The notes beneath the pieces are model-generated. The model made no database searches. It was not told the origin of the DNA and worked only from the letters and a program-made list of their open reading frames with translations. A program made the position numbers and the translations under genes. 64,000 nucleotides of DNA from Zingiber officinale (Eukaryota > Streptophyta > Magnoliopsida > Zingiberales > Zingiberaceae), in assembly GCF_018446385.1 (NCBI RefSeq), contig NC_055992.1:103682947-103746946 (forward strand). Reading direction: 5' to 3'. Positions 7,915-52,109 of the stretch are shown piece by piece (position 1 is the first letter of the stretch; every line of letters starts with the position of its first letter).

Positions 7915-10500
7915 GGGAATTGCATCTGCAGCTCAAGATTATCTCTTTTCCTTTCGGCTTTTTCTCTTGTTGTAGTTTCTATTTGGACCCGAAGAAATCG
8001 TAAAAATTATCAACTTTTCATTATCTTCTCTAATGGTAAAAGTCTGTACTATCATAATGTACTTAACTTTTGTCTAACCTGATCTAATCTAGTTCCAATT
8101 TATCTTGCTCTAAGTGCAGTGATCTTTGATTAAAACAGTGCTTTCAGTCCTTTATAGGAAAGGCAGTGCAGAGGTTTGTCATATTTCTGATTTACTTGAG
8201 TGGTTATTGATTGTCTCAAATAAGGCAGTTTGTTAGGTTTACTAACCTGATTGTGTCAATCGGTTGACTTTGTTCTAGCTCAACTCATCTTGTTCCTATT
8301 TAGTTACTATAATTGGTGGAATTCCATCATACATTATGAAAATAATAGATTTGGCTCTATTTTTGGGAATTAATAGATTTAGCATAGTTTCATGCCCAAA
8401 ATACTTGTTTATTCTCTTGAATATTACTACTCTGACTTCTTTTCCATGTGAAGATTGCAAGTATGTTCATTATGCAAATATATTCATATTTATTTGATTA
8501 CTCATGCAGATTCTCAAGCATGTTTATTATACAAGAATCCAATGTTTTTTACACAGGTGAAAAAATAGTACATTGCATGTCTCAAATCTTTTGATTAACA
8601 ATCAGAAAATTGTAAGCACCTATCAAAGAAATACTTGCAATGCTGAATGGAAAGGTTAGTTTGCATCTAGTTTAACTTTTTTCCTCTTAATGGAACATTC
8701 TTGAGATTGAAATGAGTGCAAAATAAGTCTATTAATATCTTAGTTGTCTTGGAAGAAGTCTATTGTGTCACTTGTGCTGGGCTACTGTATAATTTGAATA
8801 TCTAATTCTATATTTTTCCCTCTGCATGACATTATAATTGTTCCTCTTTGAAAGTGCCCTTAATCTTAGTCCTTCATCTCCTATTGACTTTATTCACAAA
8901 TTATTAGTCTTGATAAAGCTCATACCTCTTGGGTGCTTGACAGATGAGTAGATTAGAAATCTTTATTTTCTTAAACACACTAATGGTTTTATTTTATTTT
9001 CAGAAACTTGATGGTGAAACAAGACCTATTAGAGCTTAGTTTTTGCAATGCTACAACAGATTTATCCGAGAAGTCCTTGATCCCTCCTTTGAGATAATAA
9101 TTGTTGATCAAGTTGTATCTACTATTGTTTGAATAAGTTGATTAAGGTTGCAAGTTGAGCCTGTACTTTCAATAAGACTAGAAATGTTATCCTTTAATCA
9201 AGTAGTAGCTTCTTGATAGAGTTTATTTAGCATATGAAACTCATTTAAGATTTATAGTTTGTTGTTCAATTTTTTTTTGACCTCATACTTGTTATAATTT
9301 TTGGTTTATAATGCATTGAACCTTATTTAACATTGTTTAAATTTTAAAGTGTGTATTTAAATACATATATAACAAGTAGCCTTATTGAAGAAACTACAAT
9401 GCCAAAGAGGGGCATTATTGCAGTCATTCAAAGGTTTAATATCCAAGTTAGCAATTTGACTCAAGTAAATTTTACAATAGCTTCTTTATATAACTATACT
9501 TATATGTTAGATTTCCCCTTGAATTGTTGTCAATCAATAGCTTTTGAAATATTCTATGAACTTATTGAAAAAGTTGCTTTGTTGGATGATAGATAATATA
9601 GATGGTGAAGCTACCAAATATTTTATCTTGATTTTGTTTGCAAACTATATTGCATGTGTATTGTGGCATCTAGTAGAATTTGCATTTTGATACTCCACAC
9701 TCAATCAAGAATTGGTACAATAGCATGTTCCAATTTTCATATACTAGGAGAAATTACTTAGCATATTAGTTTCTTTGGTATATCCTATGAAATGCTCATT
9801 CCTTATTCAGTCAGGAGCTGCATTTTTCTGATATTTTTGATACATATACCTGCCTAGTTTTCCACGCAACATTAGATTTTGGTTTAATACATACACAGAG
9901 ATTGCTCATTTATCTAATCATTGTATATTTCTTTAACTCTAATAAGACATTGACGGTGCACGTATTGGCACAACTTTTCCTCACCTATTTCTGATGGCAT
10001 TCCCTTTAGCAAAATCATCAGCAAACTTAGTGTATTTCCCTGCATGCTATTTTAAGTTTTCTAATGTAATTGTGTTAAACTCTCTGAAATAGAGAGTGAA
10101 GAGTTACTCTGTGAAGTTGATGAGGACTACATATTAAGGACTAGATTTATTATGAAATTGATGATCAACAATGTTGGAAAAGGCTAACATGGAAGAATCA
10201 GCAAGTGAGAAAGAGGAGTCCAATGAAATCCTACAAGTTGAAGAATGTGATAGGACTTGGGTTGACAATAATTAAGTATAATCCTACTTGGCATGAACCA
10301 CCATCATAAGTGTCTAGTCTTTTACCTATTGTTCATTAGTTGTAAATGGAGTTTATAAATTTTATTTGAATATGAGACATGCTTCTTCTTTTGTGATTGT
10401 AATTCTTGTATAAGTAACATTTTGAATGACATTGATATGGAGAATATTCTTTCTTTTGTGATTATGATTCTTTAATATATTTATATTGACATATGATATA
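7915..10500. other. AT-rich spacer after HMGB remnant
   Basis: About 2.6 kb with short chance frames only. The first ~150 bp probably represent the old HMGB 3' untranslated region. I recognise no gene, RNA or well-bounded element in the rest. Confidence 0.5.
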
Positions 10501-36300: not shown

Positions 36301-36798
36301 TTACAGGGAATGGAAATAAAGTTTTTTGGACATGTACATGCAAAGTTAAAGTTGTGATTAGAAATTTTTCTCTAATTTACCGTTAATATTATGTAGTTGC
36401 TACAACCTTAAAACCAAAATACATCTATATGTTATTACAGTAACTCGGTAGTAGGGGTGCAAATGAGCCAACCTGCTCATGAGTCCCTCATGAGCGACTC
36501 AGTCAAAGCTTGACTTGAGCTCGAATTTGACCTAACTCGAGCCAGCTTGAGCTGAGCTCGAGCCGGCTCGTTTAACATTCGAGCTCATTTAACACTGACT
36601 CAAGGGCTCGTCGAGTCTTGTAAAGCTAGATTAATTTAATATTTTAATAATTAAAATTATTATTACTTTTAAAATAAAGAATAAGTTAAGGAGAAGTTGG
36701 TGGTTAGAGCATGTCATTTATTGTATTTGAGGTCTACGGTTTGAATCTCTACTTGAACAGACTTTTAATTTATTTTTCCAAATCAGGCTCGAGCCTGA

Positions 36799-37350
36799 CA
36801 CTACAAAAAAATAAGGCTTTCTGGGACGAATTTTGGGATAAATTTTTTTAAAAAAATTCATTGCAAAATTTTTTGGGACGAATTCAGGGACGAAAATTTT
36901 TTCGCCCCAAAATGTTTGATGCCAACTTTTGGAACGAATTATGGTTTGTTGCAAATTTGGGGACGAAATTGGCGGCGAATAAAATTTTCGTCCCCAAATT
37001 TGCAACGAATATTTTTTTTGTTGCAAACTTAGCAACGAATTTAGGGACGAATTCACATAATTTTTTTTGCCAAATTTGTCTCTATTTTTGCAACAAATTT
37101 GGGGACGAAATCGGTGACAATTTTTTTTTTGCTGCCAATTTTATCCCTAATTTTGCAACGAATAATAAATTTGTTGCAAAATTGGCAACGAATTTGGCAA
37201 CAAAATTTGCCAACGATTTAAATTTTCGTTGCCAAATTCATTGATAATTTTCATAAGCATTTGCGACGAATTTGGCAACGAAAATACTAATAATTACGAT
37301 AGAATTGGGACAAATCATTTTCGTCGCCAAATTCATCCCTATATTAAAAA
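36799..37350. repeat. CACTA subterminal repeats, left side
   Basis: About twenty copies of GGGACGAAT, TTGCAACGAAT or GGCAACGAATTTGG and their complements occupy ~520 bp next to the left terminus. Such arrays are the TNPA binding zone in En/Spm; binding here is inferred. Confidence 0.85.
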
Positions 37351-39571
37351 TTTTTTCCAGATTCAATTTATTTCTACAATTCAATCCATAGATACATAAA
37401 CACCAAATTCAAATAACAGATAATATACATTCAACACATCCTAATTTCACATACAGTATTAATAATTGAACTCAACTCATAATTCAACAAATATAAAGAT
37501 CTCAACAAATTTTACAAGATCTATCTTGTTCAAGCTTCTAGAAAATATTATACAAGTTCAACAACCCAATGTTATATAAGTCCATCATCCATCCAAGAAG
37601 GTAAATAAACTAAGAATACATCAAGTCATCTTCGTCTGCCACAAAAACTTTGCTCCCTCTCAAATCTCCTTTGCCTACATAACAACAAACAAATAAACCA
37701 GATCATGTGTAACAAGAAAGATTGTAAATATGATACGATATGCCCATGTAACAAGAAAGATTGGAAACAAGACATAACTGTGAAATTCCTTAAACATTCA
37801 AATAAATGCCCTATTTACCAATGATATAAACCATCCATGTCATAGTAACGGTAAATAAAATTATAAGAAGTATCTTGAAACTAAGTACAAGTATCGTAAA
37901 TATGATACAACCTAATATAATTGGTACATCATAGAGAGAGAGAGAGAGATCTTGTGTAGTATGGTATTAGGGTTCAAATTTCCTCACTTTGTTAACTTAA
38001 TTTTTCATTTTAATTTGCTAAATTTATAGTTTTGTCCTTGGTTTGGTTGTGTGTTTGGTGGTTAATGTAAACTAAAGAATGTTTAAAAAAATTGTTCCTT
38101 TCATTGTGTTAACTAGTTGACAATTTCATATGATTAACTTTAGCACATCTTTAACAACTCTTTGCAAAATATTAAGGTAGGAGGATGCATCGTTATCTAG
38201 TAAAGAATTTTAGAATAGTGTGATGTAATTCTAGATGAAATATAGAACTTTTATGTATCTATATAGTTTTGAGACTGTACATAGATCAAATTCAGAACTT
38301 TTATTTATCTGTATATCCCATAAAAATAATAATTAAAAAATATATAGTTTTCTATCCATTTTTCCTCTATGCAAAAGTTATTTAATTTATGGTGGCGTTC
38401 TTTATTCTATAAACTGTAATTGCACCATTAGATAATAAAGTGGGTTGGATTAGTTCAATAATATTTTCACTATGAATGTCAACATCTTTGGTACCAACTT
38501 TGATAATGTCTTGTGGTATTTTTCTAGATTTATAATATATTTACCTTGCACGCTTTTGCTTATTTTCTGTTCTTGATGATTCTTGAAAACTCACTGATGC
38601 ATGAAATAATAGTCATGCTTCTGTGGTTTAAACATACATGTAACAATCTTAAAAGCATAGTTAACATGTGGATTTTTGTTTCAAGTGTATGGATTTTATA
38701 AATCTTAGTTGATATATATGTCTTTTTTTGAGGGGACAAGAGAGATGCAAGAAGGACTTGGCTTTGTTTCAATTAGATTGTCTTTTAATACGGAAAAGAT
38801 GCATATCATGAAAAAAAGTTGATTTATGGTTTGATAGTACTAAATTCATATGTGTACAATTAATTTTGAAAATCTTAGTTGGTATATTTTTTGGTTTCTT
38901 TTACATAGCTATATTATCTTACAATTCAGATGTGTATAATTAATTTTGAGATTTTGAACATAATATAGCGATGGATTGAATATAGTAAATATTTTATTTT
39001 CAATTGATTTTTTTTACGTTTAATTGTTATCTTAAATATTGTAAATAGACAACAATTTTCTAACAATGATAATGAGTTTTAACTATTGAAATTGTTATGA
39101 TAATACCTATTTCACCATATCAATCAATAGCTACAAATATTCTATGTCCATGTGACATGGAGAGCATGAAAGGTAATCTTAAAATTTCCTAACATATGAA
39201 AATAGCTCAAATGAAGAAAACTCAAACTAGTTAAGCTTAATTTGGTGATACTAGTCTTTTAGTACTCATGGTTACTTGGTTGCTAGGTAAACTGTAATCA
39301 TAATTTGGAATTTGAACTAATAATGCAGTAGTAACAAATTTCAATAAATTAAAAGCAATTAGAAAATAAATAAATAAATAAATAAAATTAAAAGTTTAAC
39401 ATGTTACTTAATACTTACTTTTTTCTCCGACCTTTAGTTCGCCTCACCAACCCTATTAAAAACAAATTGACAATATTAATTAAAATAAAAATTAGAAGAG
39501 TTAACAAGTCATTGATTAATGTGTAAAACAGTAAACATGAGACAAATAAGCATCATACATAATTAAAATCA
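37351..39571. other. CACTA interior downstream of the TNPA-like gene
   Basis: AT-rich; a (GA)n run lies at 37934-37950. It may include 3' exons or the transcript end of the element genes, but no domain is readable. Confidence 0.4.
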
Positions 39572-41188
39572 TCAAAAACCATCACCACCATCATCGTTAT
39601 CATCGTAGGCATCATCATCATCGTCATTGGGAGGATTCTGACTTTGAGTGGAGCTCAACTGAAGGTGTTGCATGATTAATTATTGTTATCGGTGCATATC
39701 TCTAATATCTTTCTCTAAATTAGCTCGTTCTAGGTCTCTTTGCGATATTATTTCCTTCAGATTGCTAACCTCATCAGTCAAGGTATTTATTTGGGTCGTA
39801 AGTACTGATGTGGAGGAAGATGTTCCAACTAATCTTTGGGTTCTGCTCAAGGAACTCATCCCCAATATCCTTCCCCCTTTTGGTCATCCACTGGCCTCTA
39901 ACCATAAACTCAAATTATTACCAACAGACTCCTCAGACCCCCTGACTATTGATACCATCTTGTGAGCATGTTTGGGCTAGCTCGAGTAGATCATATTTTT
40001 CCTGTTTTGTAAAACACATACGATATTGATTAGATATAATAGAAACACATATAATATTAAGACAGTGATGGTACGTAACTAATTAAATTTAAACAATATA
40101 TTACGATAAAATAAATATTAATTCCAACCTTGACTGCTTTTGCTCTCGCCCCACTCCATGTGTTATCTTTTTTTTTTTTTTAAAGTGCGGGTGAAAGTAT
40201 CAATGAAAGAAGGCTCTTTCCCTATCTCCTTGGTATAAAAAAACATTATTTCAAATAATGAAATAATTTGATATATATTAAAAATTTGTGAAAGAGTGAA
40301 AAAATTACCATTCTCCGTCTATGCTCATCTATGTTAATGGAGTCTCCCGCATATATAGCACTTGAGTCACCAGAATTGTGAGATTGATTCATTCTATTCA
40401 GGTCACTCCTTTGCTTACTCTCCTCCGTTGCCCAAAATATAGTGATCCTCTCCCAATTTTCTTCGGTGATGAAGTTTGGCTTTTTTCCCCCGATTCTTTG
40501 CGTGACTTAATACATGTCTAATGTGATCACCACATTTCTTTTTAAATATTCTTCGTATCTCCATTTCAGCATTCGGGTCCCAAGTATTTAAGCGCTGAAA
40601 TGGAAATTTGTTTTATTATATATTAACTGTAAAATTGAAGTAAACTCAAGAAAATATACTTTGAACTCGCTCCACCAAAGTTGTTTTGTGGCCGGTGGAG
40701 TGCTTGAATATGCCATAGAATCCCCTCCCCAATGGTTGTTTACGATTCTATTTATTTCTCGAACAACTTGTACCGAATTTTCAAATCTGCATTAAATTAC
40801 AAAATAATGATGTTAAATAATTAAGATAGGACTAAAAAATAAAATATTTTATAGTACTTACGAATCACCGATGGGGACTAAAGGAGCTCTATCATTCCTA
40901 AACTTAGCAAATGAGTTTCTTGCTGAGTCAGGAGGATTTGAGTGGATAGGTAACTGCTTTGGGTATGGTACTTGCGGCGGTGAATATGAAACCGGTGCAG
41001 AAGGTACATGAGATGGGCCCGACTGATGAAGAGGTGGCATAAGTACACTGGCAGGGGAATATGATGCCGGTGGAGAAGACACATGGGATGGTCCCGCCTG
41101 ATTAGGGGGTGGCATAGGTTCACTGGCAGGTGATGGATTTGTCTGGTCCTGTGGCCGCCGTCTACGTCCACCACGTCGAAATATATGC
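39572..41188 (-). pseudogene. CACTA TNPA-like second gene (Transposase_24-type), decayed
   Basis: The minus strand shows a Pro/Ser-rich first segment (two copies of a GPSHV-SAP-SYSP phrase, 41115-40863) ending at a GTAAGT donor. Next comes an exon with WGGDSMAYSSTPPATKQLWW (about 40786-40660). A third exon begins LNTWDPNAEMEIRRIFKKK (~40600) and, after a frame change in a GGGGGAAAAAAG run near 40485, reads NFITEENWERITIFW and EHRRRM. The final part (39965-39572) is coiled-coil-like with an Asp-rich end (NDDDDDAYDDNDDGGDGF). These features match the plant Ptta/En/Spm family (PF03004, Transposase_24). That family is thought to be the TNPA-like partner that binds subterminal repeats. The frameshift and in-frame stops near 39680 suggest it is non-functional. 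Confidence 0.75.
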
Positions 41189-41439
41189 TGGAAATTTTGA
41201 TAATTTGATAAAGTTAATTACAGATCTGATACATAACAAAGGATAATTAAAAACTTACCATTTTTATGTAAAGATTCTGGAAAAGGGGGAAGGGGAAATT
41301 TATGAAATGTCACTTCTAATGACCTGTAGGAACAAATACAATGTGTTAACAGATAAAGTAAATCAAATTATAAAAGAGACACTATATACAATAAATTATG
41401 GGAAATTTCTTTAAATAAGCTAACAAAATTTACCCATCA

Positions 41440-44400
41440 TCAAACATCAAAGTCATCATTGTCATTATCCTCCTCCTCCTCCTCCTCCTCCTCCTTATCA
41501 TCATCATCAATTTCACTTCTATCCACGTTATTACTACACCGTTGGGATCTCGTAAAGTTGGAATAATATATTCCTCAGTCTGAAAGGTGTTTGCAACTTC
41601 CTCTTGTTGATATGCAATGTTTTCCTAACGTGCCTCAATTTTTTTTCGTGCTTTGGTTTTACAAACAACCCACCAATCAATCTTATCGTGTTTTAAACTC
41701 GGATATGAAGAATAGAATACTTGAATCGCTTGTTGTGCCAACACAAATGGTTCATCTCTTATAAAATCTCTTATGATTTATTTCAACTAAATTATAATGT
41801 GGATACACTTTCATACCTCTAACAGGGTCAAACCAGTGACACATAAATAATATAATTTGCATTTGTGGCCCTGGGTATTCTACTTCTATAATTTCATCCA
41901 ACAAACCATAAAAATCATTACTTGCACCTTCTTCATTGGATGACGATACACATACCCCACTATTCATGGTATTCTTTCCCATTCCATAGTCTTGAGTATG
42001 AAAATTATATCCATTTATGAAATATGTTGGCCAAGTGTGTACGCATGAATTTTGACCCCATGACAGATGGATTAGCCATTCTTGCTCAAGGTGAGCTTAA
42101 TTAGCTTGAACCTAAGGTCAAAACACCAATTGTTAAAAGTATGCATATGTATCAACAAAATATAGATTGTTTACTTACATATGATTTGAACCATGCAGCA
42201 AATTCTTCTTCACAAAATCGATCGAACTCTTGTGTTGATAATTCAGAATATAAGTTTTTAAATATCCTACTCAAAAAAACATATTGTTACACAAACAATT
42301 GACAAAATAAAAAAATTAAAATTAAAATATATACTTACTCGTAATATGACGATACTTCTGGACAATTTAGTAAAATATATGTTTGGGATGCCTGCCATTC
42401 TTTACTAGTTAAGTATCTTTGTTTACATGGTCCACTTGGTCGTCTAAGGCAGTTAAAAATTGAAAATGAGGTAACATTTGGATCAATAGGACCCTCATCA
42501 TTTCTGCCCGCTCTTCACCTTTTGCATTGAACATGAGGTTCAAAATAATATGATGCAAAAGTGGTGACTTCCTCCACAATGTATGCATTAATAATAGAGG
42601 CTTCAACTCGTGCTTTATTTTTCACTTTTTTCTTCAAATGATAAAAGAATCTGTTGGAGATATATAAAATTATATTAAATATAAATATATGATCCAGGAG
42701 TAGAAGTAATTTTATTTTTTTTTGCATTCAAACAATCGAATTATACAAAAAAGACACTCTACCTTTCAAATGGATACATCCATCGAAAATGGACGAGTCC
42801 TCCAACTTTGGCCTCATATGGCAAGTGAACCAAAAGATGCTCCATGGAGTCAAAAAAAGATGGTGGAAATATCCTTTCCAAATTGCACAAAATGATTGGA
42901 ATATCTCTCTCTAACTTCTCCATGTGTGAACGTCTCAAAACTGTTGAGCAAATATCATGTAGGAAAATACTTAACTCTGTAATCGCTCCCCATACAAATT
43001 GTGGTAAGAGTTCCTTAAAAGCAATAGGGATCAGTCTTTGCATTATGATATGACAATCATGACTTTTTATACCAATTAACTTCCATTCTTTCATATTGAC
43101 ACATCTTCCAAGATTAGAGATATACCCATCTGAAAATTTCAAAGATTTCAACCATTCACATAGGGCACGTCGTTGATCCTTATTTAATATATAAACTGCC
43201 TTTGGCTTTGGTTCCCTACTATTTTCATCGACATCAAGAGTGAGTCTTTTACATATGAGTCACATATCTTTTCTTGCATTGAGATTGTCTTTTGTTTTTC
43301 CGGTGATATCCATCACAGTATTTATCAGATTATCAAAAATATTCTTCTCAATATGCATTACATCGAGATTATGATGTATCAAATGACTAAATCAATACGA
43401 CAAATCTCAAAATATACTTCGTTTAGTCCATTTATGTGTACTCCCATATTCATATGTTGTACCATATGGTTGTTCAATAACAGATGGAAAGTGAAGCACT
43501 CTGTACCAAATATCTAGACCTGTCAATCTCAATGGCGGAAGTGTTCTTTCGATCCTATTTTTAGTGAATTCATCTTTATTCTTTCTGAAATTATGATTTG
43601 TTGGTAAGAATTGTCTATGACAATCAAAATAACTTGGTTTCTTTCCGTGTTTCAATCTGAATGACTTTGATCTCTCCATACATATGGGGCATCCCAAGAT
43701 CTCAGCAGTACTCCAACCTGATAGCATACTGTAAGCTGGAAAGTCATTTATGGTCCAAAGAAGAGTAGCCTTCAGTATAAACATCTAATTAGAATGAACA
43801 TCGTATGTAGGAACACCTTCATCCTATAGTTGTTTAAGTTCTGCTATCAGGAGTTGCATATAAATATCTATTAACTTCTTTGGATTTTGCGGACCTGGTA
43901 CAACCAATGTTAAAAACATATAAGGTGTTTTCATGCACATCCCAGGTGGAAGATTATACAGCGTTAAGATAACTGGCCAACAAGAATAATTTCTTCCCGA
44001 TTTACCAAACGGAGCAAATCCATCAGCACAAAGACATAATCTAATGTTTCTAGTCTCCTTTGCAAAATTTGGATATGTTCTATCAAAATTTTTCCATGCA
44101 TCTGCATCTGATGGATGACACATTAAACCCTCTTCTGTTTGATGAGTTGCATGTCAAGTCATGTGTTCCACAGTTGCCTTTGATGCATACAATCTTTGTA
44201 ACCTAGGAATTAAAGGTAAATAAAACAACTAGTTGTGTGATTTACGTCGTTGTTGACTCCTTCTGGTTGTCTTATACCTATCTTGATTACAGAATTTACA
44301 AACCTCTACATCTGCATCATCTCCCCAATATAACATACAACCATCTCTGCAAATATCAATTCTTTCAACCGGAAGACCTAAATCTTTCACCAGTTTTTTC

Positions 44401-44981
44401 ATACTGTAAAAATCAAGAGGCAAATTGTGATCACGTGGCAATGTATCGTCAAACGCTTGAACAATATCATTAAAACAATCTTCCGACATATTATGATCTG
44501 CCTTTATATTTAATAGTCTGGAGGTGAGAGATAATTTAGTTTGACTGTCACAACCGGAATATAATGGTTCATTTGCGGCACTCAATACTTCTTGAAATTT
44601 GTAATATATTTCATCCAGACCTGGTACATCAGGCTCCTCCAACGACAATGTATTAGTGGCAAACATTTGTTCACTTGTTGGAGGAAAACTAGAACTTGCA
44701 CCAAGCGTCTCGGGAATATAATTCTGACAACTTGCATCAATTACCATCCTCTAATATGGATTGAATTGTTTATAATAACTCTGCTCCCCATTAACAGAGG
44801 CTTGGAAATTCCGTCCATAATCCTCATCAGACATGAACGGTTCGCCATGACTTGTCCAATTATAATATTTCGGGGTAAAACTAAATCTACAAAGATGTTC
44901 TTCAATTTTATCGGTGGGTAAAAATTTGTCATTGCGACACTTTCTATACGCACACCTTATCTTCTTGTCATCCATATACAT
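41440..44981 (-). pseudogene. TNP2-like CACTA transposase, multiple nonsense codons
   Basis: The minus strand reads in order through the TNP2 architecture. An N-terminal transposase-associated segment (KKIRCAYRKCRND, from 44981) comes first. The Transposase_21 core follows: DLGLPVERIDICRDGCMLYW, KFC, then MCHPSDADAWKNFD, LCLCADGFAPFG, VVPGPQNPKK, PAYSMLSGWST, GCPICM, DCHRQFLP. DUF4218 comes next (HLLVHLPYEAKVGGLVHFRW, MYPFER, to ~42760), then DUF4216 (EIIEVEYPG, FMCHWFDP, 41982-41752). The C-terminus is acidic, encoded by a (TCC)n-rich run at 41470-41495, with a stop at 41440. TNP2 is the catalytic transposase that cuts CACTA ends. At least three codons are TAG in the otherwise continuous frame (near 44751, 43824 and 43785), the second replacing an expected Trp, and more breaks lie at 44229 and 43407. 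It is therefore a recently inactivated copy; intron structure was not fully resolved. Confidence 0.88.
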
Positions 44982-45789
44982 ACTTGACTAGATGCAAAAT
45001 TCAAAAATTGCCTCAGACCAGTGATAAACTCAGGAGTTAACCCCTGACGATTAGGCAAATTCTTGTTATACATCTAACTTCGCTCATTCTGCATTTTACC
45101 TGAATTCAGCTATTTAGTTAAACATTATTAAAAGTAACTACAGATAAATCTTATCATTGAAGACAAAACAACAAAGAGCAGCTTATCAAAAAGAAGGAAC
45201 ACAATTAATCAACTATAACATAATTATTTAAAACTAAATTACAATTTCATAATGTAGTGACTTTTAGGTCATCAAGATTTAACAATTTGAGTTTGAACTT
45301 ACAATTTTAACAATTCCATTTACCCACTGTAAAGTGTAAAAATAAAGTGTTCCCAATTCTTAGTTAATTCATATGTTATTTTTCTTACCTAGACTTATAC
45401 ATGAATGTTTCTTGCTATGGAAGTCTATTAACAGCAATAATCATTTAGTCTTCTTTTATTGGCTACTAGTGTACGCCTTAGTAGGTTACTCCATGGTAGT
45501 CATTTTTATTTACATATCTAGACTTGGAGAGATAACTACCATTGCAAGAAACACAAGTATGAGCGAGCATCAGCAAGTTAAGAAAGCAAGTGTTTGGGGA
45601 ATATATTGCGATTATATATATATATATATATATATCACTAACTAATCAAAACTCAGCAAGAAACACAAACTCATGTAACCATCATAGTAAGTCAACAGCG
45701 CAACTTCTTTTGTGAAGGTTCAAGTTGTATTTAGCAAATATAACTCAATTTGAAGTATCTATTGTGAATCTTGGTTGAACTTCAGCACA
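44982..45789. other. CACTA interior between leader and TNP2
   Basis: AT-rich, probably an intron of the element transcript. A short TA microsatellite lies at 45614-45635. No domain. Confidence 0.4.
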
Positions 45790-46190
45790 ACCATGATGCG
45801 GGCTAGATTTGGCCAGCCATGACTAGGTCGGCGCCGTTGGCCAGACGCCGGCCAGCCAGCGCCTGGCAGCGGCCAGCCCGTGGTGGCGGCGGCCATCCTG
45901 TGGCCAGCCCGCGGCGGCAGCCAGCACGCGGACAGCTCGCGAGGCGGCCAGCCCACGACCACCCCGGAGATCACGTCGTCGAGAGAGAGGGAGATCCAAG
46001 AGCAGCATAGAGATATGAGCTTACCAATCGAAAAGCTTCCACCTCCGGAGATCACACGGTCGTCGCAGATCACGCCGTCGTCGGTCGGAGATGTGGCCGA
46101 AACACTCCTGGAAATCGTAGGTTGGAAGGGGGAACGGGGGAGAGAGGAAAGAAATGGGGAAGAAAATAAGAAGCATGATGAGGTATAGAT
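45790..46190 (-). promoter_or_regulatory. GC-rich leader/first-exon-like region of the CACTA element
   Basis: A sharply bounded GC- and CpG-rich block in AT-rich sequence, rich in GGCCAGC(C/G) phrases on the plus strand. It lies upstream of TNP2 in transcription direction and downstream of the palindromic array. En/Spm has a GC-rich untranslated first exon (the downstream control region) that is a target of DNA methylation; a matching role here is inferred from position and composition. Confidence 0.5.
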
Positions 46191-48237
46191 CTAGGGTTTT
46201 TACCCTCAAATCTTTTTTGTTCCCAATTTCGTCCCTAAATTTGGGACGAATCCCAAAATCTGGGACGAATTCAGGGATTTGTCCCAGAATTTATTTATTT
46301 TTAAATAAAAGAGGAGATAATTCAGAAGGAATAAATACGAACCTAAAGACATCGGAATTTGATGAAACAAGTTTCTATGTGTTCGTATCATTGTCCTGAT
46401 CACAAATATATCCATAAAAATATTTTTAACCAAATATAATGATTTTTGGAATTTTTAATCCCAATTTGACCTATTTTTTGTGTTAAAAAATTAAATCACT
46501 CAAAATAATAATTCAAAATTAAGGATGATGGTATATTTACGATCAGGATAACGATACGAACGCATAGAAACTTATTTCATGAAATTCTGATATCTCTAGG
46601 TCAAGATATAAGCCTTCGATATTTGATTAATTTTTTTAAAATTATTATCTGTTTTGGGACGAATCCAGAGATTCGTCCCAAAAATTAAATTATTTTAAAA
46701 AAAATGGAAAAAAATGGGATGACTTAAATATGGACATAGAGACATCGAAATTTCATGAAACAAGTTTCTATGCGTTCGTATCGTTGTCCTGATTGTAAAT
46801 ATACCATCATCATATTTTTGATCAAATTATTTTTTGTTTTGGGATGAATCCTGGATTCGTCCAAAAATTAAATTATTTTTAAAAAAATGAAAAAATGGGA
46901 CGACTTAAATATGGAACTAGAGACATCAGAATTTCATGAAACAAGTTTCTATGTGTTCGTATCATTGACCTGATTGTAAATATATCCATAAAAATATTTT
47001 TGACCAAATATATTGATTTTTTGAATTTTTTTAATTCTAATTTGACCTATTTTTGGTGTTAAAAATTTGAATCACTCAAAATAATAATTTAAAATTATGG
47101 ATGATGGTATATTTACGATCAGGACAACGATACGAACACATATACTTATTTTATGAAATTTCGATGTCTCTAGGTCAAGATATAAGCCTTCAGTATTTGA
47201 TTAATTTTTTTTTAAATTATTATCTGTTTTAGGACGAATCTAGGGATTCGTCTCAAAAATTAAATTATTTTAAAAAATGGGAAAAATGGGACAACTTAAA
47301 TATGGACCTAAAGATATCAGAATGTTATGAAACAAATTTCTATGCATTCGTATCGTTGTCCTGATTGTAAATATACCATCATCATATTTTTGACCAAATA
47401 AATTGATTTTTGGAATTTTTTAATCCTAATTTGACTTATTTTTGGTGTTAAATATTTGAATCACTCAAAATAATAATTCAAAATTATGGATGATCGTATA
47501 TTTACAATCAGGACAATGATACGAACGCATAGAAACTTGTTTCATAAAATTTCGATGTCTCTAGGTTAATATTTAAGGTTTCGATCATTTATTTACAATC
47601 ATTCGCTGTACAACACCTTTTTAGTTAGTAGCAACCTATATATGTTTTAAAAAATATCTACCTAGAGACATCAGAATTCCGTGAAACAAGTCTCTGTGCG
47701 TTCGTATCATTGTCCTGATCGTAAATATATCCAGAATTTTTTTTTAACCAAATATATTGATTGACGAAATTTTTTAATTCTAATTTAACATAATTGATGT
47801 TAAAAATTTGAATCACTCAAAATAATAATTCAAAATTAAGGATGATGATATATTTACGATCAGGACAATGATATGAATGCATAGAAACTTGTTCATGAAA
47901 TTCCGATGTCTCTAAGTCAAGATATAAGCCTTCGGTGTTTGATTAATTTTTTTTAAAATTATTTTCTATTTTGGGACGAATCCTGGATTCGTCCCCAAAT
48001 TTGGGACGAATCCATGGATTCGTCCCAAAATTTGGGTCTAATCCAGATATTCATCCCAAAAATTAAATTATTTTAAAAAAAATTAAAAAATGGGATGACT
48101 TAAATATGGACCTAGAGACATCAGAATTTCATGAAATAAGTTTTTATGCGTTCGTATCATTGTCATAATCAATAATATATCCATAAAAATATTTTTGACC
48201 AAATATATTGATTTTTGGAATTTTTTAATCCCATTTT

Positions 48238-49075
48238 TAGGCCTGTTCAACCGGTCGGTTAACCGGTTTACCGGTTTATCGATTTCGCTTAATTCTGGTT
48301 TACCATGATTTATTTAAAACCGGTTAACCGACTGGTATCTTATCGGTTCTACCGATTCCGGTTGAACCGGTTCCGGTCGGTTAATCGGTTCCAACCGAGA
48401 ACCGGTAAAACTAAAGTTAAGAGTCCCAGACCTTTGATGAAATAACAAAACAAACAAAAAGACCATTAATTAAAAGGATTAATATAGAAATTTTCTCATG
48501 TTCTCGACTAAATGTTGTAGATTGATATCCAGTTCATCCTGTTACATTACTCTTACCTACTTTGCAGATCAGGTGGTGGCGGCGGTTGGATAGATTGGAG
48601 ACGTAGACATGTCCAAAAATTTATTTATATAAAAGCTTTCAAGATGGGACCAAGTTTGTTTATACTTTTAGAGAGGTATGTGCTTTAACAAAATTTATCC
48701 AGAAGATGGTGAAAGATTGTGAAGAGTTCAGAGTTCTGCAGGTTGAGCTCGAGTCCATTGAAAGGTATATGAAAGAATTTGAAGCACCATTTGGTCAGAT
48801 ACTCAGATTTCATTTTATAGACTAGATTCATTTACCATGTAATTTGTAATCCATGGCTCGTATTAAAACCAAGTCAACCGGTTGGTCATTGGTGCCTCGT
48901 TTTACCGGTTTACCGGTTAAACCGGTAAAAAAAATCCAAAACCAGGAATCAACCGGTAAATCGGTAAAAACCGGTTAACCGGAACCGATTAAAACCGATT
49001 AACCGGTTAACCGGTAAACCAAAATCGGTAAGCTACCGGTTCCGGTTCGATTTTCGGTTTTTTTTCACAGCCCTA
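48238..49075. mobile_element. hAT-like element with CCGGTTAACCGG repeats, perfect 8-bp TSD
   Basis: CCCATTTT is duplicated exactly at 48230-48237 and 49076-49083. The ends TAGGCCTGTTCAA and (complement of right end) TAGGGCTGTGAAA are inverted repeats. Both arms are full of ACCGGTTAACCGG phrases (48255-48410 and 48890-49055). The middle (about 48540-48830) has a more gene-like composition with an open stretch ending at 48825 (below). Confidence 0.9.
48566..48825 (+). other. Possible captured exon fragment inside the hAT-like element
   Basis: After a splice-acceptor-like TTTGCAG at 48566 the composition changes. One frame from about 48650 reads GTKFVYTFREVCALTKFIQ, then KMVKDCEEFRVLQVELES and a further stretch to a stop near 48825. 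It looks like amphipathic helix, but I do not recognise the protein. It may be hAT transposase debris or a captured host exon. Confidence 0.3.
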
Positions 49076-51730
49076 CCCATTTTGACCTAATTTGTATTAA
49101 AATTTTGAATCACTCAAACTATTAATTCAAAATTATGGATGATGATATATTTATGATTAGGACAATGATACGAATGCATAGAAACTTATTTCATAAAATT
49201 CCGATGTCTCTAGGACAAGATATAAGCCTTCGGTGTTTGATTAATTTTTTTAAAAATTATTATCTATTTTGGGACGAATTTTGGATTCATCCCAAAACTT
49301 GGGACGAATCCAGGGATTCGTCCCAAAATTTGGGACAAATCCAAGGATTAGTCCCAAAATTCGGGATGAATCCAAAATTCGTCCCAAAAATTAAATTATT
49401 TAAAAAAAATAGAAACAAATGGGACAACTTAAATATGGACCTAAAGACATCGGAAATTCATGAAACAAGTTTCTATGCGTTCGTATCATTGTCCTGATTG
49501 TAAATATACCATCATCATATTTTTGACCAAATAAATTGATTTTTGGAATTTTTAATCCCAATTTGACCTATTTTTGGTGTTAAAAATTTGAATCACTCAA
49601 AATAATAATTCAAAATTATGGATGATGGTATATTTACGATCAGGACAATGATACGAATGCATAGAAACTTGTTTCATAAAATTTTGATGTATCTAGGTCA
49701 ATATTTAAGGTTTCGGTCACTTATTTACAACCATTCGCTGTACAACACCTTTTTAGTTAGTAGCAACCTATATATGTTTTAAAAAATATCTACCTAGAGA
49801 CATCAGAATTTCATGAAATAAGTCTCTATGTGTTCGTATCGTTGTCCTGATCGTAAATATATCCAGATTTTTTTTTTAACCAAATATATTGATTGACAAA
49901 ATTTTTTAATTCTAATTTGACGTAATTGCTATTAAAAATTTGAATCACTCAAAATAATAATTCAAATTAAGGATGATGGTATATTTACGATCAGGACAAC
50001 GATAAGAACGCATAGAAACTTGTTTCATGAAATTTTGATGTCTCTAGGTCAAGATATAAGCCTTCGGTGTTTGATTAATTTTTTTTTTAATTATTTTTTG
50101 TTTTGGGACGAATCTTGGATTCGTCCCAAAAATTAAATTATTTAAAAAAATGGGGCGACTTAAATATGGACCTAGAGACATCAGAATTTCATGAAACAAA
50201 TTTCTATGTGTTTGTATCGTTGTCCTGATCGTAAATATATCCATAAAAATATTTTTTGACTAAATATATTGATTTTTGGAATTTTTTAATCCAATTTTGA
50301 CCTAATTTGTGTTAAAATTTTGAATCACTCAAACTATTAATTCAAAATTATGGATGATGGTATATTTACGATTAGAACAACAATACGAACGCATAGAAAT
50401 TTATTTCATGAAATTCTGATGTCTCTAGGTTAAGATATAAGCCTTCGGTGTTTGATTAATTTTTTTAAAATTATTTTCTGTTTTGGGACGAATCCTGGAT
50501 TCGTCCCAAAACTTGGGATGAATCCAGGGATTTGTCCCAATAGAGATTCATCCCAAATTTTAGGGTGAATCCAAAGATTCGTCCTAAAAATTAAATTATT
50601 TAAAAAAAAATAGAAAAATTGAGATGACTTAAATATGGACCTAGAGACATCGAAATTTCATGAAACAAGTTTCTATACATTCGTATCATTGTCCTAATCA
50701 TAAATATACCCATAAAAATATTTTTGACCAAATAAATTGATTTCTGGAATTTTTTAATCCCAATTTGACCTATTTTTGGTGTTAAAAATTTGAATCACTC
50801 AAAATAATAATTCAAAATTATGGATGATGGTATATTTACGATCAGGACAATGATACGAATACATAGAAACTTGTTTCATGAAATTTCGATGTCTCTAGGT
50901 TAAGATATAAGCGTTCGGTGTTTGATTTTCTTTTTTTTTTTAAAATTATTTTCAGTTTTGGGACGAATCCAGAGATTCGTCCCAAAAATTAAATTATTTA
51001 AAAAATTAGGAAAAAAATAGGACGCCTTAAATATGAACCTAGAGACATCGGAATTTCATGAAATAAGTTTCTATGCGTTCGTGTCGTTGTCTTGATCATA
51101 AATATATCCATAAAAATATTTTTTACCAAATATATTGATTTTTAGTATTTTTAATCCTAATTTTACCTAATTTTGGTGTTAAAAATTTGAATAACTCAAA
51201 ATAATAATTCAAAATTATGAATGATGGTATATTTATGATCAGGATAATAATACGAATGTATAGAAACTTGTTTCATTAAATTCTGATGTCTCTAGGTCAA
51301 GATATAAGCCTTCAGTTAATTTTTTTTAAAAAAATTATTTTCAGTTTTGGGACGAATCCTGGATTCGTCCCAAAACTTAAAATATTTTAAAAGTATAGGA
51401 AAATAATGGGACACCTTAAATATGAATCTAGAGACATCGGAATTTCATGAAATTAGTTTTTATACGTTCGTATCGTTGTCCTGATCATAAATATATCCAT
51501 AAAAATATTTTTGACCAAATATATTGATTTTTGGAATTTTTTAATCCCATTTTGACCTAATTTGTGTTAAAATTTTGAATCACTCAAAATATTAATTCAA
51601 AATTATGGATGATGATATATTTTCGATTAGGACAATAATACGAACACATAGAAACTTGTTTCATGAAATTCCGATGTCTTTAGGTCAAGATATAAGTCTT
51701 CCATGTTTTTTTATTTTTTTAAAAAATAAT

Positions 51731-52005
51731 TTCAATTCTGGGATGAATCCTGGATTCATCCCAGATTTTGGACGAATCCTCGATTTGTCCCTAAATTTGG
51801 GACGAATTCTGTATTTGTTCCAGATTTGAGGTCGAATTTAGCAACAAAATTTTTTCCTGTTGCAAACTTGAAACGAAATTTTTTGTTGCAAATTTCATTG
51901 GTCATTTGGGTTGAAATTTATTTTCGTTGGTAAATTTGTCCCAATTTTAGGACGAATTATTTTCGTTCTAGACTTTTGTCCCCAAATTTGTGTTTTTTTG
52001 TAGTG
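51731..52005. repeat. CACTA subterminal repeats, right side
   Basis: GGGATGAATCC/GGATTCATCCC, TTTGGGACGAATTC and GTTGCAAACTTG-type motifs crowd the last ~270 bp before the right terminus. They mirror those at the left end. Confidence 0.85.
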
Positions 52006-52109
52006 TGACTTGAGCTCGGCTCGGACTCGAGCTCAAGTCAAGCCTATGTAGTTTTCTCGAGCTCGAGTTGGCATGAGCTCGAGCTCGGCTCGGCTCGATT
52101 ACAGCCCTA

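Follow-up and report, generated by a model that had tools for sequence, protein, structure and literature searches.

Why should a DNA transposon carry, just inside one of its ends, several kilobases of large inverted repeats? The locus considered here lies in ginger (Zingiber officinale), in a 64,000-nucleotide stretch (C7:103682947-103746946, hereafter the window) of the 3.09-Gb assembly that was also the genome searched. It contains a complete CACTA element of 15,207 bp (36799-52005, minus strand), for which an original prediction, made from the letters alone, had described an array of palindromic units and offered two reasons for it: amplification of the element's own transposase-binding site, or transcripts folding into hairpins. 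We find that the array is genuine and unusual, and that the sampled copies of the family share it. As to its nature, we hold with about even confidence that it would be an expanded 5' control region, in which palindromic TNPA-type binding sites are set upon a tandemly amplified palindrome.

Anatomy of the palindromic array

Using a 100-bp arm probe we detected 23 strong copies in the window, 12 in plus and 11 in minus orientation, all of them within 46332-51697, and plus and minus arms alternated in 21 of the 22 steps. Inverted pairing yielded 25 arm pairs with lengths of 61-197 nt, a complementarity of 70-90 % and spacings of 0-364 nt, and every one of the 103 minus-strand matches with E ≤ 1e-10 in a self-comparison of the element fell in the array zone, ruling out chance inverted matches. 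As complementary arms are present, the array cannot be reduced to direct repeats; head-to-tail monomers of a single orientation were not found, the only direct repetition being that of whole two-arm units. The sole break in alternation, two plus arms in succession at 46714/46895, looks like the loss of one minus arm.

A consensus was built from 83 units at 11 loci, with every element turned to one orientation, and proved to be a nearly perfect palindrome of ∼350 bases with a predicted hairpin of -180 kcal/mol. The predicted multi-kilobase array of palindromic units inside a CACTA element was thus borne out by arms, alternation and consensus alike, as was the expectation that single units fold: predicted energies for the ten window units of the consensus set were -106 to -145 kcal/mol, and units 6 and 11, refolded singly, gave -142.5 (z -19.5) and -95.2 kcal/mol (z -10.9). 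Some units elsewhere, at 39.57 Mb (L025, L026) and 2.89 Mb (L011, L012) of contig C1, reached -198 to -209 kcal/mol, with neighbours at only about -85 to -140 kcal/mol and, at 39.57 Mb, a rhythm of three units. None of the 60 listed Rfam matches reached its gathering score, which rules out a known RNA family as the identity of the array.

The arms had been described as surrounding a motif centre. They are indeed complementary, but the repeat has two axes of symmetry, one at the GGGACGAATCC centre and one in a loop of ∼80 bp, and the pairing of long arms over the loop is no less pronounced than that over the motif. Loops from a plus arm to the next minus arm measure 78-85 bp in the window, one interrupted loop excepted, whilst two kinds of junction lead from a minus arm to the following plus arm, a variable one bearing one to several tandem ∼31-bp palindromes of the form GGGACGAATCC-n-GGATTCGTCCC, and a motif-free one of ∼74 bp. 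The array holds 20 copies of GGGACGAAT, but the junctions at 47578-47651 and 49710-49783 (74 bp each) lack the motif and that at 47187-47285 has mismatched copies only.

Read from the inner side, the array begins with a motif cluster (46227-46290) leading to the first arm, followed by unit 1 (46332-46612), an orphan plus arm whose minus partner was apparently deleted (46714-46813), units 2 (46895-47186), 3 (47286-47577) and 4 (47652-47928), and a junction with several ∼31-bp motif palindromes (47929-48089). Unit 5 (48090-49226) is followed by a junction with four such palindromes (49227-49418), and then come units 6 (49419-49709), 7 (49784-50060), 8 (50150-50441), 9 (50627-50911), 10 (51017-51308) and 11 (51406-51697). 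All units were delimited by the arm probe. The loop of unit 5 is broken by a hAT-like, non-autonomous insertion of 838 bp (48238-49075) that is not part of the array; it has CCCATTTT on both sides, ends in TAGGCCTGT and TAGGGCTGT, and contains many ACCGGTT repeats. Additionally, 47490-47730 resembles 49620-49860, both lying around a 74-bp motif-free junction, which points to a higher-order repeat comprising several arms.

The element and the position of the array within it

The window element belongs to the CACTA (En/Spm) superfamily by its ends, target duplication, transposase and subterminal repeats. CACTACAAAAAAA is present at both termini as CACTA-type inverted ends, and the flanks form a 3-bp target duplication, TGA/TGA (36796-36798 and 52006-52008). 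Pfam searches returned Transposase_21 (tnpD) matches with E-values of 1.1e-40 and 4.3e-25; the tnpD pieces (41752-44153, minus strand) comprise Transposase_21, DUF4218 and DUF4216, the last just below the cut-off, and their strand places the 5' end of the element at 52005. Named relatives of the transposase come mostly from Sesamum, at about 60-70 % identity, a distribution that probably reflects which genomes have been annotated. A weak Transposase_24 piece (40246-40503, minus strand; E 0.0076, below the Pfam cut-off) marks a possible second gene with the role of TNPA. The 3' subterminal zone (36799-37350) contains three copies of GGGACGAAT, seven of GGACGAA and six of CAACGAA, a variant that it also employs, and zero arms, whilst the 5' subterminal zone with the terminus (51698-52005) has ∼30-bp motif repeats at 51739-51837. 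Subterminal repeats occur in both direct and inverted orientation.

On its inner side the array adjoins a G+C-rich leader (45946-46190, minus strand) with AAACCCTAGATC and a donor-like GTAAGC, a putative promoter and first exon. The array is thus located between the 5' end of the element and this promoter-like leader, and tnpD reads away from it; if the leader is the promoter, the array lies upstream of it and outside the transposase transcript. The leader is closely similar in the window and at 24.47, 19.95 and 15.34 Mb of C1, and looser versions with (A)ACCCTA were found at 10.45, 2.57, 2.89 and 39.57 Mb, so that a leader with (A)ACCCTA adjoins the array in eight of 11 loci.

Family copies across the ginger genome

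Two samples of related copies were drawn. For the first, 11 places on C1 were chosen among listed matches to the 13-mer TTGGGACGAATCC, a choice that favours motif-rich places and omits other listed clusters, for example near 7.77, 15.14, 15.54 and 24.9 Mb. Arms were present in 10 of the 11, with 9-28 arms each, and alternation was complete in all ten (150 arms, 140 steps). At the remaining place, 4.26 Mb, there were zero arms, yet tnpD runs past the end of the stretch, making the absence uninformative. The array adjoins the 5' end in nine of the ten array-bearing places; at 24.47 Mb the 5' end was not found and the array meets foreign sequence, its outer side being cut, by eye, by retrotransposon gag-like sequence (L023, raw position ∼8480-8900).

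The second sample was drawn so as to avoid a bias towards the motif; the query was the terminal 176 bp at the 5' end, and 40 places were scored out of 658 candidates, the window included. All nine places fetched in this way bear arms just inside the end (22, 23, 4, 3, 14, 19, 6, 13 and 1), although the larger counts may be truncated, as the stretches were 3-5 kb long. Alternation breaks only in L034, at one of 18 steps. As these nine were among the best matches, the sample is biased towards close relatives of the window element. L032 passes into unrelated sequence within an arm pair. L031 1-1693 (C4:4060289-4061981) is a 1,693-bp miniature with both ends and two palindrome units only, its flanks CCA/TAC showing no match. 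The 5' ends of L040 and L041 (C13:95669330 and C14:79365720) lie on different contigs and share the flank CATTATCTCTCATTCGTG, through insertion into another repeat or as part of a duplicated region.

Arms in 19 of the 20 other fetched places rule out an assembly artefact or a satellite private to the window, and with them the idea of a separate inserted satellite absent from related copies. The array is a trait of the family copies sampled, and its unit number is widely variable. Furthermore, 3-bp flanks were identical in eight of the nine elements with both ends located (eight on C1 plus the window), for example AAA/AAA at 5.63 Mb, the non-identical pair being GCT/GTT at 3.40 Mb; by these flanks the array-bearing elements moved as wholes. 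No tnpD match of ≥ 80 bp was found in seven of the ten array-bearing C1 places. With 11,332 genome occurrences of the 13-mer and a mean of 9.6 over the 11 array loci, we estimate that roughly a thousand such elements exist in the genome, a figure derived from a biased sample.

Conservation of the motif

In the window, GGGACGAAT occurs 24 times as against 0.48 expected from shuffles: 20 copies in the array, three in the 3' subterminal zone, one in the outermost 5' zone and none in the intervening 8.8 kb. The centre motif is thus the subterminal motif, as had been predicted, but the claim that it crowds both subterminal zones was too strong, these having three and one exact 9-mers. Genome-wide, the reversed control of TTGGGACGAATCC gave eight occurrences, and the exact palindromic dimer was found in 3,074 places vs none for its reversed control.

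Half-sites were detected in the junctions with a 14-base template. We found 272 at ≤ 4 mismatches and 273 at ≤ 5, so that detection was near saturation; shuffled junctions gave three and 19, respectively. Columns of GGGACGAAT were 0.91-1.00 identical, and the two bases that follow it 0.79 and 0.76. Moreover, the CpG of the motif was retained in 225 of 272 half-sites, compared with 34-62 % at four CpGs of the arms; with exact flanks required, the figures were 213/255 for the motif vs 56/124 and 34/75. This is the pattern that a constrained protein-binding site would show. Within the arms, the best conserved stretch, seen for example in 47286-47385, matches GAATTTCATGAAACAAGTTT and holds the small palindrome TTTCATGAAA. 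In the plus arm GAATTTCATGAAACAAGTTT is 0.96 identical between locus consensuses (0.73-0.88 elsewhere in arms and loop) and its mirror in the minus arm 0.87-0.88; this stretch could be a second binding site.

Age and turnover of the arms

Identity among plus arms is 0.911 for the 313 pairs that share a locus and 0.797 for 880 sampled pairs drawn from different loci, which indicates that the array of each element has been homogenized or re-amplified separately. Copies at 19.95 Mb and L033 have tnpD parts (∼850 bp aligned) that are 94-95 % identical to that of the window, yet they carry 10 and 14 arms, respectively, vs 23. In all 11 loci, plus arms resemble one another more than they resemble minus arms; minus arms likewise resemble one another more in nine loci, the exceptions being 2.89 and 39.57 Mb, where minus-minus identity falls slightly under plus-minus. 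The palindrome is thus an old state, and it has been copied in direct two-arm steps.

Arms of the same unit match at 0.8161 as against 0.8201 when permuted (SD 0.0018; 1973 of 2000 permutations at or above the observed value). Matched change that would keep the arms paired was therefore not found, and since belonging to one unit confers no closer match than membership of separate units, there is no sign of selection for hairpin RNA. This permutation, together with the identity comparison, rules out both continuing arm-to-arm correction and RNA covariation.

What the array may be

The reading of the array as an expanded control region would run as follows. Copies of GGGACGAAT would serve as TNPA-type binding sites, mostly as head-to-head dimers, with ∼31-bp motif palindromes, singly or in groups of several, alternating with an old palindrome of ∼300 bp and this block repeated in tandem from the 5' terminus to the promoter of the transposase gene. 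The element's DNA-binding protein would occupy the motif, and this occupancy may serve end pairing and self-regulation of the promoter, like TNPA in maize En/Spm; the array itself would have grown two arms at a time, through slippage or unequal exchange. We favour this reading because arms adjoin the 5' end in nine of ten array-bearing C1 places and in nine of nine places fetched by that end, because the motif columns and CpG are kept and exact dimers are so numerous relative to the control, and because arrays are retained in elements that lack a tnpD match, at seven of the ten array-bearing C1 places, and the leader stands beside the array in eight of 11 loci. The predicted amplification of binding sites is thereby favoured indirectly, through motif conservation, the binding itself being putative.

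Several observations weigh against it. Copies with few arms exist (one in L037, three in L032, four in L031 and six in L035), and many units are thus not indispensable, bearing in mind that L032 is interrupted and L037 was read over 3 kb only. The leader was not found beside the array at 5.63, 9.87 and 3.40 Mb (three of 11 loci), and the TNPA-like gene is a candidate identified by the sub-threshold Transposase_24 match. The three bases before GGGACGAAT show mixed conservation (0.97, 0.71 and 0.91), so that, set against the bases that follow, only the inner edge of the motif is clean. Uniformity of the motif could, moreover, stem from a quicker renewal of the short repeats. The main rival is a possible but somewhat less credible account in which the array is a by-product of palindrome and repeat instability: a single inverted duplication arose beside the subterminal zone, and the recombination-prone array then grew and shrank, with a function no greater than that of a few ordinary subterminal sites. 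Such an origin would suit the 10, 14 and 23 arms in copies with closely similar tnpD parts, the greater identity of plus arms within than between loci, and the small elements with few units; it sits less well with the stronger conservation of the motif and its CpG relative to the arms in those arrays, and with at least one arm in all nine copies sampled by their 5' end.

Many miniature inverted-repeat transposable elements are nearly perfect palindromes, and the consensus is one too, which raises the improbable alternative that the ∼300-bp palindrome was a separate element of this kind, or a satellite, caught once beside the subterminal zone and multiplied with it. Capture of a satellite by CACTA elements has been described (PMC8978399), but here the symmetry of the consensus continues through A/T-rich flanks toward the motif clusters, and neither clear ends nor a target duplication were seen in it. 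Equally improbable is the hairpin-transcript reason put forward originally, by which array transcripts would give rise to small RNAs and thereby to silencing of the family; in a variant of it, they would target a host gene, as does miR820 of a rice CACTA element (PMC3459959). Predicted folding is strong, down to -209 kcal/mol in the units mentioned above (-198 to -209), but tnpD is transcribed away from the array, same-unit arms show no excess match, and the Rfam matches all fell short of their gathering scores.

A bolder extension of the control-region reading, which we regard as unlikely though worth stating, is an adjustable operator: the array would be an extensible series of palindromes, upstream of the promoter, to which the DNA-binding protein of the element itself would attach, and the array's length (2 to at least 14 units) would set the binding, titration or response of each copy. 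If so, array length, and not coding sequence, would decide which copies, including transposase-free ones, move or are silenced.

Comparison with known elements and significance

In maize En/Spm the 5' control region, of ∼0.2 kb, has TNPA sites upstream of the transcription start followed by a G+C-rich stretch. The ginger element is alike in its CACTA ends, in a short motif repeated between the 5' end and the promoter, and in the G+C-rich stretch that follows; it is unlike in that its array spans ∼6 kb with long palindromes between the motif clusters, the binding sites being putative. Tandem repeats have reportedly also been noted in older work on CACTA elements of Triticeae and Ipomoea.

The following comparisons draw on excerpts of the cited reports. 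TNPA binds subterminal repeats (PMC2613891), and in soybean Tgmt*, within a 732-bp portion of the right border, 24 such repeats make up 12 palindromes (PMC2613891), a similar pairing of subterminal repeats, although with short stems, another motif and, in the excerpt, no amplified long palindromes. A Jozin-type CACTA element of Chenopodium quinoa carries a 5.55-kb satellite array inside its 16.5 kb (PMC8978399), likewise a kilobase array internal to a CACTA element; unlike ours, it consists of 171-bp satDNA monomers near the 3' end, is considered captured, and is described in the excerpt without mention of palindromes. PgCACTA1 of Panax ginseng, with Pg167TR, is similarly a CACTA family with an internal array whose copy number varies greatly (PMC6181221), and the rice element with miR820 shares a hairpin-forming sequence (PMC3459959), but its miRNA acts on a host gene, whereas any transcript or target of the ginger array would be hypothetical. 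Internal satellites and palindromic subterminal repeats of CACTA elements have thus each been described separately. For long palindromes arrayed over several kilobases together with the subterminal motif we found no description in the openly licensed literature searched, and among the matches listed for the motif strings in openly licensed papers, none was on CACTA elements by its title.

Subterminal repeats determine the mobilization of CACTA copies as well as their self-control, and usually span a few hundred bases. Arrays of subterminal type on a kilobase scale, with unit numbers that differ widely within one genome, constitute a natural dose series in which the effect of putative binding-site number could be read. 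They also show, at good resolution, long palindromes that have been amplified and homogenized within, and not between, transposon copies.

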